A stretch of DNA of 64,000 nt, taken from positions 124,001 through 188,000 of the forward strand of contig ABHC01000001.1 of assembly GCA_000171835.1 (NCBI GenBank), read 5' to 3'. A program made the position numbers and the translations under genes. This document shows positions 15,193-62,403 of the stretch, piece after piece. The DNA is from an alpha proteobacterium BAL199 (lineage in GTDB: Bacteria; Pseudomonadota; Alphaproteobacteria; Thalassobaculales; Thalassobaculaceae). The notes under the pieces were generated by a model, which worked only from the letters and a program-made list of their open reading frames with translations, was not told where the DNA came from and searched no databases. The first letter of the stretch is position 1. Each line of letters begins with the position of its first letter.

Positions 15193-16779
15193 TCATGACT
15201 CTTGTGTTGATGAAGACGGCACCGACGACGCTGCACTGGTCGCGTCGTCGGTGCGCAAGACCTCTTGAAGAGACATCTGCTCGCGTCGACTGACCGAAGT
15301 TGGTTCAAGCAATGTCGGGAAACTCAGCGTCACCGTCGTACCGCGACCGGGTGCGCTGGCGATGTTCAACGTGCCGTCGTGTTCACGAACCAGCGCCCGG
15401 CTCAGGGCGAGCCCGAGCCCGACACCCTCGACGGCTCGCGCTCCGCTGACGCCGGCCTGCTCGAAGGGCCGGAAAACGCGCTCAAGATCGTCGTCGGACA
15501 TGCCGATACCGGTGTCGGCAACACGGATGACGACCGTGCCGGCGGTATCGTCGCCAATGTCGACTTGAACCGATCCGCCTGCGTCGGTGAATTTCACGGC
15601 GTTGGTCAGCACGTTCAGCAGGATCTGCCGGAACCGAACCCGGTCACCAAGGATCGTTGCTGATGGGTTTGCGGCGGGAGCGAACCGCAGATCGATGCCG
15701 GAATCGGTGGCGCGCCCCTGCACCAGCCGGCAGCAGGATTCGATCTGTTCGACCACATCGAGTGGCTCGCGCCGAAGAACCAACTTTCCGGCTTCGACCC
15801 GTGACAGGTCCAGGACATCGTCGATCAGGGCGAGCAGATGATCACCGCTGGAGCGGATATCGTTTGCGTAGTCGCGGTACTTCGCGTGGCCGATCGGTCC
15901 GTACAGCTGTCTGGCCATGATCTCCGAGAATCCGATGATCGCGTTCAGTGGCGTTCGAAGCTCGTGGCTCATGGCGGCCAGGAACATCGATTTGGAGCGG
16001 TCGGCGGTCAGCGCGGCGTCACGGGTCCGCGACAGCTCCTCCGACGCGGCCTTCAGGCGGGTGTTCTGTCGGGCGAGCAGGGCGAGCGCGTCGGAGGTTT
16101 CCTGAAGCGCGCTGTCGCGTTCCCGAACCGCGGTCTGGAGGTGGTCGAGGGCATGACGCAGCGCCCGCAGGACCACCCGGTCGATCCCCAGATACAGTCC
16201 GGCTGCGATCAATGCCGAGAACATCGTGACCAGGGCGGTCTCGAAGAAGGTCGGCCAGAGACTGGCGCTGGTCGCAAGCTCGGCGACACGTCTACCGTTG
16301 ATGAGAATTGGCGCCCTGGCGGTGAGTACCGGCCGATCAACACGGGTTGTCGACGGCAACAGAACTTTGCCTTTCGGGCCAAGCAAGGTCCGCTCGATCT
16401 GAATTCCCATCGATGGAATTGAGGCAATCACCTCCCGGATGGCGCCAGTGTCGCTGGCCCATTCAGACCCCGCACCTTGAGCCTGGTTCGAAACGCGTTC
16501 GGCGGTCACTGCGGCCTCCAGGCCGACGTGCTCGTGGAGGGCGCGGATTCCGGCAAGCGTAAACAAGGCTGGAATGGAGAACAGGACGGTTGCGGTCACC
16601 GCAATTGTCAGGCGGCGAAGCGCCCGGCGCACCAGTGCGATGTCTGTTGCCGGAGTAGCTTCCAAACGGCCATACGCTGCTGCCGTATCCGACGATTTGG
16701 CGCCGAACTCAGTCCTTACAGCCGTGGGAACTTCGTTCGTCATGGCGCGCTTCGCGTCGCTGGGCTGGGTGGCCATCAT
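15193..16779 (-). CDS. Membrane-bound sensor histidine kinase
   Basis: A 528-residue kinase. Two membrane spans (about 50-75 and 185-210) frame a periplasmic sensor region of about 110 residues that matches no family I can name. A coiled linker, a HisKA domain with the phospho-accepting histidine in SHELRTPL (about 270), and a HATPase domain with N, G1 (DTGIGM) and G2 (GVGLGLALSRALV) boxes follow. No response regulator gene is adjacent, so it is an orphan in this window. The start can be either of two adjacent ATGs at 16779 and 16776. Confidence 0.88.
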   Translation of the reverse strand: MMATQPSDAKRAMTNEVPTAVRTEFGAKSSDTAAAYGRLEATPATDIALVRRALRRLTIAVTATVLFSIPALFTLAGIRALHEHVGLEAAVTAERVSNQAQGAGSEWASDTGAIREVIASIPSMGIQIERTLLGPKGKVLLPSTTRVDRPVLTARAPILINGRRVAELATSASLWPTFFETALVTMFSALIAAGLYLGIDRVVLRALRHALDHLQTAVRERDSALQETSDALALLARQNTRLKAASEELSRTRDAALTADRSKSMFLAAMSHELRTPLNAIIGFSEIMARQLYGPIGHAKYRDYANDIRSSGDHLLALIDDVLDLSRVEAGKLVLRREPLDVVEQIESCCRLVQGRATDSGIDLRFAPAANPSATILGDRVRFRQILLNVLTNAVKFTDAGGSVQVDIGDDTAGTVVIRVADTGIGMSDDDLERVFRPFEQAGVSGARAVEGVGLGLALSRALVREHDGTLNIASAPGRGTTVTLSFPTLLEPTSVSRREQMSLQEVLRTDDATSAASSVPSSSTQES

Positions 16780-57609: not shown

Positions 57610-58509
57610 TCAACTCCCCCGATACGTCGAATAGCTCCACGGTGTCGCCAGCAGCGGCACGTGGTAGTGGCCTTCCGGCTCGGCGATCGCGAAGCGCACC
57701 GGCACCACGTCCAGGAACGGTGGGTCGGCTAGCGGTACATGCAGTCCCGCGAAGTAGGCGCCAAGATGGAATCTCAACTCATAGCGCGCGGTCGGTAGCG
57801 GTCGGCCGGCGATCAGCGGTGCGTCGGTGCGGCCGTCGGCGTTGGTGACGGCGCGCACGACGAGGCGGATCGAATCGCCGCCGGTCAGTTCGAACAGCTC
57901 GATCGCCACCCCCTCCGCCGGACGGCCGCGATGGGTGTCCAGGATGTGGGTCGACAATCGGCCATGGACGGACAGGCGGTCGGCCGCCGTCACCCGCTGG
58001 TCGAGGCGCAGGGCGCCGATCCGCAGGACTTCCGCAAGCGCCGTGTCGAGTTCGGCCTGCGGCGTGTTCTCCAGCCGGCGCGCGAAGTTGGCCAGGATCG
58101 ACTCCTTGCCGTGCCGGCGCACACAGACGATGAACGGAAAGCCGAACTTGGCGTGATAGGCATCGTTCAGGCGGTGGAACTCGGCGTATTCGGCGTCCGA
58201 CAGCCGGTCGAGCCCGGCGCTTGCCTGCTCGGCGGTGGAGTCCGACGTCAGGTCGCCGGCGCGGGCCGCCTTGCCGGCCAGGTCCGGGTGGCCGCGCACC
58301 AGGGTGAGGCGCTGTTCCAGCGGCGCGTCGCGAACGATTCCGGTCAGGGTGGTGTACAGATCGGCCAGCGAGGCGAAGGGCCGGTGCCCGGCGGCAGCTT
58401 CTACAACCCATGGAGCGTGCTCGAACACGCCGTTCATCGCCACCGTAAAGCTGGTGTCGTCAACCCGGTTCAGAATATCGAGGGCGATCGGCTCGGGATC
58501 GGAGGTCAT
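57610..58509 (-). CDS. uraD: Fused OHCU decarboxylase / 5-hydroxyisourate hydrolase
   Basis: A 299-residue fusion covering the two steps after urate oxidation. Residues about 1-165 form the OHCU decarboxylase (VRGHPDLAGKAARAGDLT with the catalytic histidine, then GFPFIVCVRRHGKESIL). Residues about 185-299 are the transthyretin-like 5-hydroxyisourate hydrolase, with LSTHILDTHRGRPAEGVAI at its start and the C-terminal YRGS signature. Fusion secures a correct order: 5-hydroxyisourate to OHCU to S-allantoin. It starts 7 bases after puuD. Confidence 0.95.
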   Translation of the reverse strand: MTSDPEPIALDILNRVDDTSFTVAMNGVFEHAPWVVEAAAGHRPFASLADLYTTLTGIVRDAPLEQRLTLVRGHPDLAGKAARAGDLTSDSTAEQASAGLDRLSDAEYAEFHRLNDAYHAKFGFPFIVCVRRHGKESILANFARRLENTPQAELDTALAEVLRIGALRLDQRVTAADRLSVHGRLSTHILDTHRGRPAEGVAIELFELTGGDSIRLVVRAVTNADGRTDAPLIAGRPLPTARYELRFHLGAYFAGLHVPLADPPFLDVVPVRFAIAEPEGHYHVPLLATPWSYSTYRGS

Positions 58510-58516
58510 GCGCCGC

Positions 58517-59716
58517 TCATTCCCTGGTGGCGCCGGCGGCGAGCCAGGCGGCCAGCACCGCACGCTCCTCGACCGGCATGTCGGTGATGTTGCCGGGCGG
58601 CATGGCGCCGGAGCGGACCGCATAGAGTTCGATCTGCCGGGCGTGCTGGTGGATGCGTTCCGGCGTGTCGAGCTTCACGCCCTTCGGGGCAGCCGGAACG
58701 CCGAGCCAGACGGCCTCATCGGCGTGGCACATGCTGCATCGGGACAGCACGATCTCCTCGACCGCCGCGAACGTCGGGGCCGGGGCGTCTGCCGCACCGA
58801 CCACGGCATCGCGCGGACCGGCGGCACTCAGCCAGCCGATGGCGGCGAGACCGGCGGCTGCCACACCCCAGGTCCACCAAGGGCTGCCCTTACCGGCATG
58901 CCGACTGTTGAAGAAGTGCCGGATCACCGGGCCGAGTGCCAGGAGAATGGCGACGATGACCCAGTTGTACCGGGTGGCGAACAGCAGGGGGTAATGGTTG
59001 CTGATCATCAGCAGCACGACCGGCAGGGTCAGGTAGTTGTTGTGCACCGAGCGCTGCTTGGCCTGCCGGCCCAGCGCCGGGTCCGGCGACTGACCAGCGA
59101 ACAGCGCGGCGATGGTCTTCTTCTGGTTCGGGATAATCACCACGAACACGTTGGCGACCATCATGGTGCCGATCAGCGCGCCGATCTGCACAAAGGCAGC
59201 GCGGCCGCTGAACACTTCGGTGAAGCCCCAGGTCGCCGCCACCAGGAACAGGTAGCCCACGACCGACAGGGCGGTCTCGCTGCGGCCCAGCGGCGAGCGG
59301 CACAGCGCTTCGTACAGCAGCCAGGCACCAGCCAGGCTGCCGACGCTGAGCGCGATCGCCATCTGCGGTGTCAGATCCATCACCGTCCGGTCGATCAGGA
59401 ACAACTCGGCGCCGAGGTAGTAGACCAGCACCAGCAGGGCGAAGCCGCTGAGCCAAGTGGTGTAGGCCTCCCATTTGAACCAGGTCAGCTCGTCCGGCAC
59501 CCGGTCGGGGGCCACGAGGTACTTGACCATGTGGTAGAAGCCGCCGCCGTGGACCTGCCAGGCTTCGCCCTGGACTCCGGCGGGCAGGCCGCTGCGCTGC
59601 CGCAGGCTGAGGTCGAGTGCGATGAAGTAGAACGAGCTGCCGATCCAGGCGATGCCGGCGATCACATGCAGCCAGCGCACGATCATGCTCAGCCACTCGA
59701 CGAGCACCGCATCCAT
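58517..59716 (-). CDS. puuD: Membrane urate oxidase with cytochrome c domain
   Basis: A 399-residue PuuD-type enzyme. Eight or so membrane spans (about 10-300; RWLHVIAGIAWIGSSFYFIALD at the start, NNYLTLPVVLLMISNHYP) are followed by a C-terminal cytochrome c domain with the haem motif CSMCH and a late methionine in SGAMPPGNITDMP. It converts urate to 5-hydroxyisourate and passes electrons to the respiratory chain, so no peroxide is formed. It is first in the seven-gene minus-strand operon. The frame extends upstream, but the ATG at 59716 opens the family sequence. Confidence 0.93.
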   Translation of the reverse strand: MDAVLVEWLSMIVRWLHVIAGIAWIGSSFYFIALDLSLRQRSGLPAGVQGEAWQVHGGGFYHMVKYLVAPDRVPDELTWFKWEAYTTWLSGFALLVLVYYLGAELFLIDRTVMDLTPQMAIALSVGSLAGAWLLYEALCRSPLGRSETALSVVGYLFLVAATWGFTEVFSGRAAFVQIGALIGTMMVANVFVVIIPNQKKTIAALFAGQSPDPALGRQAKQRSVHNNYLTLPVVLLMISNHYPLLFATRYNWVIVAILLALGPVIRHFFNSRHAGKGSPWWTWGVAAAGLAAIGWLSAAGPRDAVVGAADAPAPTFAAVEEIVLSRCSMCHADEAVWLGVPAAPKGVKLDTPERIHQHARQIELYAVRSGAMPPGNITDMPVEERAVLAAWLAAGATRE

Positions 59717-59864
59717 GGCCGACCCGCCCCTGCCGTTGTGCCGCCGGTCAAGGTGACGGGCTGCGCATGGGGAGAAGGCTACACGGCTCGCCGAACCGCC
59801 TTCAAGCTTCGCGCGCGGCGCGACCCGCGCCATACTCCGTATTGCGGGCGGAAGGTGTCGTTTA

Positions 59865-60350
59865 ATGGAGTTGTCTTTGATGTCCGATGAGAAGCACTTG
59901 CGCCGGGCGATCGAGCTCAGCCAAGGCAACGCCGAAGCCGCCACGGGCGGACCGTTCGGTGCGGTGGTGGTGCGCGACGGCATGATTGTCGGCGAAGGCG
60001 CGAACCGGGTCATCACCGACTTCGACCCGACCGCGCACGCCGAGGTCGTTGCGATCCGTGCGGCCTGTCGGCAACTCGGCACCTACGACCTGTCCGGCGC
60101 GGTGATCTACACCAGCTGCGAGCCGTGCCCGATGTGCCTGGCAGCCATCCTGTGGGCGCGCATCGACCGCATGGTCTATGCCAACACCCGGGCCGATGCC
60201 GCCGCGATCGGCTTCGATGACGCGTGGTTCTACGAGCAGGTGGCGCTGCCGATTGACGGTCGCGCCTTGCCGGCGCAGCGCCTGCTCGGCGACGAGGCGC
60301 GGGCGGTGTTCCAGCTGTGGGCCCAGAACCCGGACAAGATCCCATATTGA
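59865..60350 (+). CDS. guaD: Guanine deaminase (cytidine-deaminase fold)
   Basis: A 161-residue enzyme. The zinc site is canonical: HAE in PTAHAEVVAIRAA and PCPMC in SCEPCPMCLAAILWA. The C-terminus with FQLWAQNPDKIPY resembles the Bacillus-type guanine deaminase. It makes xanthine from guanine, feeding xanthine dehydrogenase. It is divergent from puuD with 148 bases between starts, so one control region may serve both. GAAGG lies before the ATG at 59865. Confidence 0.88.
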   Translation: MELSLMSDEKHLRRAIELSQGNAEAATGGPFGAVVVRDGMIVGEGANRVITDFDPTAHAEVVAIRAACRQLGTYDLSGAVIYTSCEPCPMCLAAILWARIDRMVYANTRADAAAIGFDDAWFYEQVALPIDGRALPAQRLLGDEARAVFQLWAQNPDKIPY

Positions 60351-60416
60351 GCCTGCCGGCCGACTGTCCGCGATTGCGGCTGCATTCCCCGAATGGATGA
60401 AGTAAGACCCGTTAAC

Positions 60417-61070
60417 ATGGGCTGGTCGAAGGACGGATCGGGTGGACGGCGGCGCGGCTACCACCATGGCAATCTGCGCGAGGCGTTGATCGAGGCGGCG
60501 CTGTCGCTGATCGCCGAGAAGGGGCCGTCGGGTTTCAGCTTCGCCGACGCGGCGCGCTCCGCCGGGGTCAGTTCGGCGGCACCCTATCGGCATTTTCGCG
60601 ATCGCGATGCGCTGCTCGCAGACGTGGCGCTCCGCGGATTCGAGTTGTTCGAACAACGTCTGGCCAAGGCCTGGAACGATGGCCGACCGGAACCGTTCAG
60701 CGCGTTCGAAAGCACCGGGCGCGCCTATCTAGCGTTCGCCCGCGAGGAGCCGTCGCACTATTCGGCGATGTTCGAGGCTGGGGTCGACCTCGACTCCGAC
60801 CCCGAACTGCGCAAGGCCGCCGACCGGGCGTTCGCCGTGCTGCGTCAGGCGGCCGACGCGCTGTGCGCCCTGGCGCCGGCCGGCGCCCGACCGCCGGCGC
60901 TGATGGTCAGCCTGCACTTGTGGTCGATGTCGCACGGCATCGCCTCCCTGTTCGGCCGCGGCGATGCCGGTCGGCGTAAGCTGCCGATGGCGCCGGAGGA
61001 ACTGCTGGAGGCCGGCGTGCTGGTGTATCTGCGTGGCCTTGGGCTCGACCGGGGTAGCACTGGACGATAG
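60417..61070 (+). CDS. TetR-family transcriptional regulator
   Basis: A protein of about 217 residues. The N-terminal helix-turn-helix has GYHHGNLREALIEAALSLI, then GFSFADAARSAGVSSAAPYRHF. The C-terminal ligand domain belongs to the WHG type (AYLAFAREEPSHYSAMFEAGV). The ATG at 60417 begins shortly before the family sequence; one at 60393 is possible. The inverted repeat at 61118-61144 just downstream is its likely site. Confidence 0.87.
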   Translation: MGWSKDGSGGRRRGYHHGNLREALIEAALSLIAEKGPSGFSFADAARSAGVSSAAPYRHFRDRDALLADVALRGFELFEQRLAKAWNDGRPEPFSAFESTGRAYLAFAREEPSHYSAMFEAGVDLDSDPELRKAADRAFAVLRQAADALCALAPAGARPPALMVSLHLWSMSHGIASLFGRGDAGRRKLPMAPEELLEAGVLVYLRGLGLDRGSTGR

Positions 61071-61117
61071 TGACGATTTTTTTGCCGCCTGCTCTTGATC
61101 AGCAAAGGCGGTTCGAC

Positions 61118-61144
61118 CATGTGAATGTTACTAACATTTACATG
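61118..61144. promoter_or_regulatory. TetR-type operator candidate before the DUF2852 gene
   Basis: A 27-base inverted repeat: 13-base arms (CATGTGAATGTTA and TAACATTTACATG) around one central base, with one mismatch. It lies 48 bases after the tetR stop and 8 bases before the DUF2852 start, reaching the ribosome site. A bound dimer would block that gene directly. Confidence 0.65.
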
Positions 61145-61152
61145 AGGTCGGC

Positions 61153-61521
61153 ATGGGCATCGTGGAGAAATTAGACGACATCGGAAAGCCGGCCTGGATC
61201 GGCCTGATGGTGTTCGGATTCATCGTGTTCTGGCCGTTCGGCCTGGCAATTCTCGGTTACCTGTTCTGGAGTGGACGCATGGGATGCTGGAAGCGTAGTC
61301 GCGGGCAGTGGTGGCAGAGCGAGAAGCGGTCATCCACAGGCAATGCGGCGTTCGATGAATACCGCAGCGACACGCTGCGACGGCTGGAAGACGAGCAGAA
61401 GGAGTTCGTGGACTTCCTTGAAAAGCTGCGGTTGGCCAAGGACAAGGCCGAGTTCGATCAGTTCATGGCCAATCGGGGTCGCCGCCCGGACGGTCCGGCC
61501 CCAGAGGCGAACGGCGCCTGA
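61153..61521 (+). CDS. DUF2852 domain small membrane protein
   Basis: A 122-residue protein. One long hydrophobic segment (about 14-40, WIGLMVFGFIVFWPFGLAIL) is followed by a basic stretch and a soluble helical tail with TGNAAFDEYRSDTLRRLEDEQKEFVDFLEKLR. This is the DUF2852 family of alphaproteobacteria, function unknown. A strong terminator follows. The operator candidate just before it suggests control by the adjacent TetR protein. Confidence 0.85.
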   Translation: MGIVEKLDDIGKPAWIGLMVFGFIVFWPFGLAILGYLFWSGRMGCWKRSRGQWWQSEKRSSTGNAAFDEYRSDTLRRLEDEQKEFVDFLEKLRLAKDKAEFDQFMANRGRRPDGPAPEANGA

Positions 61522-61561: not shown

Positions 61562-61587
61562 ACAACCCCGGTCTCGGCCGGGGTTGT
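61562..61587 (+). terminator. Rho-independent terminator after DUF2852
   Basis: ACAACCCCGG and CCGGGGTTGT form a perfect 10-base stem with loop TCTCGG, followed by TTCGTT. It ends the DUF2852 transcript and may also serve the convergent oxygenase gene. Confidence 0.8.
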
Positions 61588-61602
61588 TTCGTTCCTGGTC
61601 GG

Positions 61603-62403
61603 CTACGCGCCTGCCGGTGCCGTGATCTGATAGGGCCGGCTGTCGATGAAGTCGTCGGCCAGATCGACGAAAAAGTTTACGTAGCGTCGGATGTGGGGCG
61701 TCGGCCGGCGCGGCAGCACGCCGTGCACCGCGTCGACCGAGTTCACGAACATGATCAGCGTGTTCGGGGCGTACGCTATGCGGGAGACCGGCTCGACATC
61801 CTTCAGGTCGACGGAGACCCCGTGGAGGCGCCGGGCGCCGCGGTGTCGGTACAGCATGAGGTCGCCGCCGGCGTCGTCACCCGGTTCCGGAAAGTAGAGC
61901 AGGGCGCTGATCAGGCGGCGGGCCTTGTCGATGTGCGCGCCGCGCACCGAGGACGATGTCGTGACCGGGGTATTGAAGCCGAACTGCAGGCCAAGCCGCA
62001 CGGCGGGCGTTCGTGGGTTCTGGGAGGCTGTCGGGTCGTTGGCGCGCACTGTGGGCGCAGCTTCAAGAGGGATGCCCAACCGGGTCTCGAGATCGGGATG
62101 GGCGCGCCGGATGGCGGGGCCCATGACGCGCACAATTGACTGAAAGAATGCGGGTGACGTGTGATGCGACACAAACCATCGCCAGGCTTCGGTCAATCGG
62201 GCGGCAATCAACGGTTCAAATGGATCGATCAGGGCCAGGAAGTTCTGCGGAGTGTTCGCCGGCACGGTCGGTCTCGGCATTGCCTGAGACAACCCGCGAT
62301 ACAACTCCTCCGGCAGGCAGTCGACCCGCAGCAGATGGGCGAACGGGCTGTCGGACACATCAGACGGTGCCGCGCTGTCGAGGATCGAGTGTGTGCCGGT
62401 CAT
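61603..62403 (-). CDS. 2OG-Fe(II) oxygenase family protein
   Basis: A 266-residue protein. The iron site is suggested by H and D in GAHIDKARRLISALLYF and the distal histidine in NSVDAVHGVLPR. The arginine pair in HIRRYVNFFVDL is placed for 2-oxoglutarate. The middle part DDAGGDLMLYRHRG fits the double-stranded beta-helix. The substrate is unknown; the nearest relatives act in small-molecule or sugar-linked pathways. It is separated from the sensor kinase by about 100 bases. Confidence 0.78.
   Translation of the reverse strand: MTGTHSILDSAAPSDVSDSPFAHLLRVDCLPEELYRGLSQAMPRPTVPANTPQNFLALIDPFEPLIAARLTEAWRWFVSHHTSPAFFQSIVRVMGPAIRRAHPDLETRLGIPLEAAPTVRANDPTASQNPRTPAVRLGLQFGFNTPVTTSSSVRGAHIDKARRLISALLYFPEPGDDAGGDLMLYRHRGARRLHGVSVDLKDVEPVSRIAYAPNTLIMFVNSVDAVHGVLPRRPTPHIRRYVNFFVDLADDFIDSRPYQITAPAGA

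Follow-up and report, generated by a model that had tools for sequence, protein, structure and literature searches.

The tetR-DUF2852 locus

The window, meaning the whole stretch of 64,000 nucleotides analysed here, comes from alpha proteobacterium BAL199 (GCA_000171835.1, contig ABHC01000001.1, positions 124,001-188,000, forward strand), whose genome comprises 6.1 Mb in 69 contigs. Within it, a tetR gene ending at 61070 is followed on the same (plus) strand by a DUF2852 gene with its ATG at 61153, and the gap between them holds an inverted repeat that the original prediction took for a TetR-type operator. The features of the locus are as follows.

60400-60418, no strand: putative tetR operator, AAGTAA-N7-TAACAT, matching 9/10 specified bases, the last two being the AT of the proposed ATG at 60417
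60417-61070, plus strand: tetR, a regulator with TetR_N and TetR_C_33 domains, start ATG at 60417 chosen by homology
61095-61100, plus strand: proposed -35 element TTGATC of the DUF2852 promoter, with a 17-base spacer to 61118
61118-61123, plus strand: proposed -10 element CATGTG, inside the left arm of the repeat
61118-61144, no strand: putative DUF2852 operator, 13-base arms with 1 base between them
61119-61137, no strand: operator unit A, ATGTGA-N7-TAACAT, perfect match, first proposed TetR dimer site
61125-61143, no strand: operator unit B, ATGTTA-N7-TTACAT, perfect match at a 6-base shift, second proposed TetR dimer site
61145-61148, plus strand: AGGT, possible DUF2852 ribosome binding site judged from sequence
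61153-61521, plus strand: DUF2852 gene, 122 aa, a hydrophobic helix followed by a charged helix, predicted small membrane protein
61562-61595, plus strand: terminator-like inverted repeat (10-bp perfect, 61562-61587) with T-rich tail

The TetR protein passes the Pfam TetR_N model (PF00440, E 2.9e-11, 43.4 bits, cut-off 24), its C-terminal domain matches TetR_C_33 (PF13305, E 6e-16), and its AlphaFold model (mean pLDDT 84.9) matches TetR structures, that is, the all-helical C-terminal TetR fold, with 1zk8 and 3on2 as the best PDB fold matches. None of the 12 NCBIfam TetR equivalog models listed (BetI, RutR, FabR, AcrR and others) was passed, the best score being 38.8 bits against a cut-off of 250. 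The open reading frame list also offers a longer tetR start at 60393. The DUF2852 protein passes PF11014 (E 2.1e-38, 131.4 bits, cut-off 22.5) and carries the conserved stretch FDEYR...LR.AKDK.EFD.FM; its AlphaFold model, of low global confidence (mean pLDDT 72.4, pTM 0.28), places helices at 4-39 and 65-109. It is predicted to be a small membrane protein in which the first helix is of membrane type and the second charged. Upstream of tetR, at 57610-60350, lies a purine breakdown group recognised by Pfam (an OHCU decarboxylase/HIUase fusion, a urate oxidase and a deaminase), the urate oxidase having a cytochrome c-like tail whose Pfam score is below its cut-off. The gene following DUF2852 (61603-62403, minus strand) had been described as sealed off by a terminator; the inverted repeat and T-rich tail are indeed present, but they add little because that gene is convergent, and shuffled sequence contained a mean of 1.1 terminator-like sites, i.e., about one is expected per such region.

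Anatomy of the repeat before DUF2852

The arms of the repeat (61118-61130, CATGTGAATGTTA; 61132-61144, TAACATTTACATG) are complementary at 12/13 positions and eight bases (61145-61152) separate it from the DUF2852 ATG, so that both the single difference between the arms and the placement originally reported hold. The repeat is 70% A+T, compared with 34% for the window. As a bare palindrome it is unremarkable in 64 kb: between 0 and 3 such repeats were counted in each of 12 randomised copies of the window (order-1 Markov, spacers 0-8), and the real window has two. The other one, at 15220-15253, has 13-base arms matching at 12/13 or better across an 8-base spacer, which is what chance would produce. 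A chance palindrome would account for these counts equally well, and conservation is therefore the decisive evidence.

Comparison of the gaps of relatives yielded a consensus unit, ATGTNA-N7-TNACAT, and for the whole repeat ATGTNA-ATGTNA-N-TNACAT-TNACAT. Instead of the one 27-base site originally proposed, the positions 61118-61144 comprise two 19-base units that overlap, the second displaced by 6 bases, an arrangement to be expected for two TetR dimers. The 27-base pattern at up to 3 mismatches occurs in the own genome solely at 61118-61144, and a perfect unit in exactly two places, both within that repeat. Allowing up to one mismatch gives 28 places, among them the tetR start, whereas the reversed pattern gives 8; additional TetR targets may therefore exist.

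Conservation of the unit

DUF2852 was found in 25/146 relatives and in 68/387 genomes of the class. A first set of 73 DUF2852 loci was compared, among which 49 had TetR upstream on the same strand (phmmer E < 1e-30); the gap contained a perfect unit in 48 and a 9/10 unit in the remaining one (L072). When confined to the 200 bases after tetR in the 48 adjacent loci (L028, with tetR ~1 kb away, falling outside), 47 were perfect and one 9/10, the reversed motif reaching at most 8. The 25-base double form was present at 18/20 or better in 38/49 loci, the remainder having single units or partly decayed pairs. A second set of 80 named loci, the best 80 of 584, was picked by TetR similarity alone and takes in Rhodopseudomonas, Bradyrhizobium, Afipia, Nitrobacter, Bosea, Hyphomicrobium, Reyranella, Chelatococcus and many uncultured organisms; four of its loci overlap in sequence with loci of the first set. 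DUF2852 ends within 1.2 kb of tetR in 70/80 and lies anywhere downstream on the same strand in 73/80, and the gap unit of the 70 was perfect in 68 and 9/10 in the other two, while the reversed motif never exceeded 8 in these gaps. Across related loci the operator columns are nearly fixed and the flanking columns near background.

Elsewhere in the second set, one locus (L131) runs out at a contig end after the site and the beginning of DUF2852, and another (L144) stops 176 bases past tetR. Three (L132, L133, L156) have a perfect tetR unit with DUF2852 not seen within ~3 kb, and two show neither unit nor DUF2852 in the sequence at hand (L162, 2982 bases; L174, 1012 bases). The L131 contig is labelled Anaerolineae and may be mislabelled or part of a contaminated bin.

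The conservation check proposed with the original prediction, for loci where tetR and DUF2852 adjoin, thus came out in favour of an operator tied to the pair, the unit being perfect or 9/10 in 48/48 and 70/70 loci. Against this recurrence at one position, a chance palindrome is vanishingly improbable, and it is conservation rather than statistics alone that excludes it.

The site at tetR itself

A perfect unit also lies near the tetR start in 35/49 loci of the first set and 71/80 of the second, the reversed motif not exceeding 8 in either set. Among 99 readable perfect tetR units, 84 end in an in-frame ATG, 12 in an out-of-frame ATG and 3 without ATG, so that a position over the start codon holds for most perfect cases and one near the start for all. 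By this pattern, tetR probably controls itself through the unit at its own start. In the family of the window the unit is 9/10 in the window genome and 8/10 in G002, and it was not seen in G001 or in four g12 loci; because of these weak or missing units, self-control in this family is likely but uncertain and the site may have decayed. Since a start codon within the site leaves little space for a leader, we infer that the tetR message is leaderless or nearly so; a weak TTG-like peak 18-20 bases ahead of the site is compatible with such a reading, though not strong.

Coupling of the unit and DUF2852 to this TetR

At a strict threshold (E 1e-60) this TetR was found in 51/387 genomes of the class, and all 51 are among the 68 with DUF2852 (Fisher 2e-49, a value that ignores kinship); this occurrence only with DUF2852 indicates tight coupling and makes the inference of function sound. 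Every one of the 51 carries the unit before DUF2852, perfect in 50 and 9/10 in G290. The other 17 DUF2852 genomes lack this TetR, and in the 16 that could be tested over 600 bases upstream (the region in G105 being cut by a contig end) the best match was 6-9/10, with 0/16 perfect, a sole 9/10 (G240) and the reversed motif up to 8. In G153 and G240 a different, divergent TetR gene lies upstream of DUF2852 (L073, L074) together with altered half-sites of GTGAAC/GTTCACTT type, and it is possible, from these sequences, that regulator and site changed together. Two 1.5 Mb single-contig genomes of the window's family (G013, G021; L021, L023) keep DUF2852 without such a TetR or site. DUF2852 is nearly confined to the class, which contributes 65 of the 66 matches among 299 genomes of the phylum, the remaining one being marginal (E 3e-4).

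The unit stays with DUF2852 where tetR is distant (~2.4 kb in G378, ~1 kb in G329, on another contig in G221). In a further family, f23, which we take from the look of its genes to be Rhodobacterales-like, TetR does not adjoin DUF2852 and follows a PPK2 gene in one Pfam-checked case, with similar neighbours in two more. DUF2852 in this family carries two units, in 5/5 genomes first seen and in 30/30 further loci (those returned from 40 genomes with DUF2852). In the latter the units are spaced by 57-59 bases in 28, by 70 in one and by 6 in one; one member of the pair is only 9/10 in 4/30, and in 4/30 the units sit ~95-170 bases before DUF2852. TetR is present in 29/30 of these genomes; in the other (G457, 85% complete), which has DUF2852 and units, none was found at E 1e-50. 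The tetR start showed no unit in the five f23 genomes examined.

These distributions bear on whether the repeat could be a transcript hairpin or terminator rather than a protein site, as an inverted repeat between two same-direction genes may suggest. However, the stem is A+T-rich with no T run after it, the unit recurs at the start of tetR and ahead of DUF2852 genes that are not linked to tetR, and it tracks the presence of TetR, no testable genome without the orthologue having a perfect site; the hairpin or terminator reading of 61118-61144 was rejected as very improbable. The alternative, that TetR and DUF2852 are regulator and target, is strongly supported by the comparative sequence evidence.

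Architecture of the operator

Of 129 loci entered into a scan of unit architecture, 7 went unscanned (tetR pattern not found) and 111 had a perfect unit at or after the tetR end. A second unit (at least 8/10) occurred at a 6-base shift in 97/111 and at none of the shifts 1-5 or 7-12; because loci with an ATGT six bases upstream had their left end placed on it, shift 6 is favoured by the procedure, but the zeros elsewhere are not. Single units exist too, e.g., in L016, L020, L059-L061 and L065, and at tetR.

A single TetR dimer with extended contacts on a 25-27 base palindrome could also be envisaged, as the site is one nearly perfect palindrome and in other TetR proteins a single dimer binds 15-17 bp, according to a passage of PMC4150764. 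However, N7 half-site pairs occur alone at tetR and at several DUF2852 promoters, separate units lie 57-59 bases apart in most f23 loci, and the second overlapping unit appears solely at the 6-base shift among shifts 1-12. A single extended dimer is accordingly judged unlikely, and occupancy of the overlapping units by two dimers would fit the anatomy better.

Promoter

In the relatives, T is the commonest base preceding the ATGT arm, giving TATGTN as a candidate -10 element, and TTGA[CT] gave 83 matches across 111 loci at distances of 24, 25, 27 or 28 bases ahead of the operator's left end; in a window of equal size downstream of the operator, no distance gave more than 2 such matches. A simple E. 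coli-type consensus scan found no promoter in the region, and the DUF2852 promoter therefore counts as proposed. Taken together, the operator most likely covers the -10 element and the transcription start, the start lying near its middle. The original prediction had placed the site on the translation start region, which is probably misplaced: as a -35-like element, TTGATC, stands 24 bases upstream, the site covers a likely -10/transcription start region, and transcription, not translation, is the probable target.

It has to be considered that TetR might activate DUF2852 or act on its translation. The nearness of the site to the start codon would allow this, as would promoter elements that are proposed and escaped the consensus scan. 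However, the site occupies the place expected for -10/+1, most loci having TTGA[CT] 24-28 bases ahead of it, and most studied TetR proteins are repressors, as a passage of PMC3511530 has it. Activation or translational control thus seems improbable, and transcriptional repression is the preferred reading.

Other candidate targets

DUF2852 had been thought probably the only target, which is probably not so, given the tetR start unit (9/10 in the window) and a third gene in about half of the f23 genomes that have it. The latter encodes a 357-aa protein with no Pfam match over cut-off; it occurs in 28/61 genomes of the family and is preceded by a 9-10/10 unit in 15/28 (control at most 7; loci L227, L244, L245, L254-L281), f23 being the one family where such an extra target was sought. 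Perfect units number 1-9 per genome against 0-2 for the reversed control (35 genomes, among the matches listed; 9 genomes re-run). A wide TetR regulon was considered and rejected, as perfect units are few per genome and one extra target recurs in the chosen sample of places. Other places with units include a TetR paralogue (L234 by Pfam, L232 by similarity only). Another of these places, the palindrome ATGTCA-N7-TGACAT, stands in a homologous neighbourhood of L224, L235, L239 and L241; in L235, the one read in detail, it separates a MarR-like regulator gene from a divergent aminotransferase-like gene (named by eye), and it is probably the operator of another regulator.

A model for regulation of DUF2852

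Comparison between genomes shows the sites, how they are built and that they go with this TetR and with DUF2852, and it allows the construction of a model in which TetR is very probably a dedicated local repressor of DUF2852. This model proposes that TetR would bind ATGTNA-N7-TNACAT as a dimer, that the two overlapping units before DUF2852 may hold two dimers, and that these would cover the -10 element and the transcription start, thereby shutting off a one-gene DUF2852 transcript. A single unit over the tetR start may confer a weaker self-repression, and if DUF2852 takes two dimers and tetR one, control would be tight at the former and loose at the latter. A small-molecule ligand could then free TetR from the DNA, allowing DUF2852 to be made. 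Within this model we infer the binding itself, repression rather than activation, the two dimers, the promoter and the existence of a ligand; that the signal might be a disturbance of the envelope or membrane is a guess.

Hints at the function of DUF2852 point weakly to the cell envelope. TolQ-like genes lie nearby (downstream) in 14/80 loci, TolR-like genes in 9 and TolA-like genes in 11, named by eye with one TolQ-like gene Pfam-checked. According to a passage of PMC6377625, a DUF2852 protein is lower in a Brucella suis mapB/TamB mutant. A Bradyrhizobium DUF2852 protein is up 2.5 log2 at low oxygen, with the transcript at 2.1-fold, and at 4.9-fold in bacteroids, the table concerned carrying no NifA or FixK2 mark (PMC6515984); judging from L189, L191 and L199, this gene would be the TetR-linked DUF2852.

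It is conceivable, albeit doubtful, that these observations reflect an undescribed and widespread alphaproteobacterial stress switch, in which a TetR that exists only with DUF2852 would sense membrane or envelope disturbance, repress its own, probably leaderless message through one site at the tetR start codon, and repress DUF2852 through an operator that may have been rebuilt in evolution (as a 6-base overlapping pair, a 58-base separated pair or a single unit) while the half-site stayed constant. A description of the regulator or site was not found in the open-access literature, supplementary files aside, among the matches listed. Searches with operator strings likewise returned no bacterial regulation paper on the site among the matches listed, only a 10-base string being matched, and matches to DUF2852/PF11014 were by title mostly on Plasmodium, apparently through other identifiers. 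While local TetR repressors are well known as a kind, this member, its target and the changing layout of its operator appear undescribed.

By name, DUF2852 is scarce in full-text literature. The pair provides a handle on its function, in the form of a regulator, a half-site, a promoter and a clean genetic prediction in genera such as Rhodopseudomonas and Bradyrhizobium, and because a probable repressor and its likely sites are kept with DUF2852 in many relatives, the family becomes easy to test. The signal that releases TetR, once found, would tell when cells need DUF2852.

Comparison with known TetR systems

A 6-base shift between dimers is presumably also that of QacR. QacR, CgmR, SlmA, Ms6564 and CprB form a group of TetR proteins that bind as dimers of dimers, with measured operators of 22-32 bp (PMC4150764), and the present regulator resembles them in being of TetR type and in having a long operator able to hold two dimers. 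The QacR-type arrangement of two overlapping dimer sites is seen in the sequence of most loci scanned, as described above. Unlike that group, the regulator belongs to the TetR_C_33 subfamily, its site sequence is another, its target is DUF2852 and two-dimer binding is a proposal. The dimer-of-dimers reading thus draws on operator anatomy together with the precedent of QacR and CprB given in passages of PMC4150764, and by analogy TetR is likened to QacR in its working rather than assigned as a dimer-of-dimers binder.

With respect to sequence and fold, 3on2 (Rhodococcus) and 1zk8 (Bacillus cereus), both TetR_C_33-like, are among the best PDB matches, with 26-29% identity in the fold alignment, and their titles name no operator or ligand. 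A palindromic operator near both the target and the own gene is a trait of the TetR family, and here sequence conservation places one at each. The system is further akin to the self-regulating TetR repressors of a neighbouring gene described in a passage of a genome-context study (PMC3511530), in that the regulator adjoins its target, a site lies in the gap and the regulator gene has a site of its own. In contrast to the repressors of that passage, however, the genes are here co-oriented with separate sites, and the link between regulator and target persists when the genes are apart.
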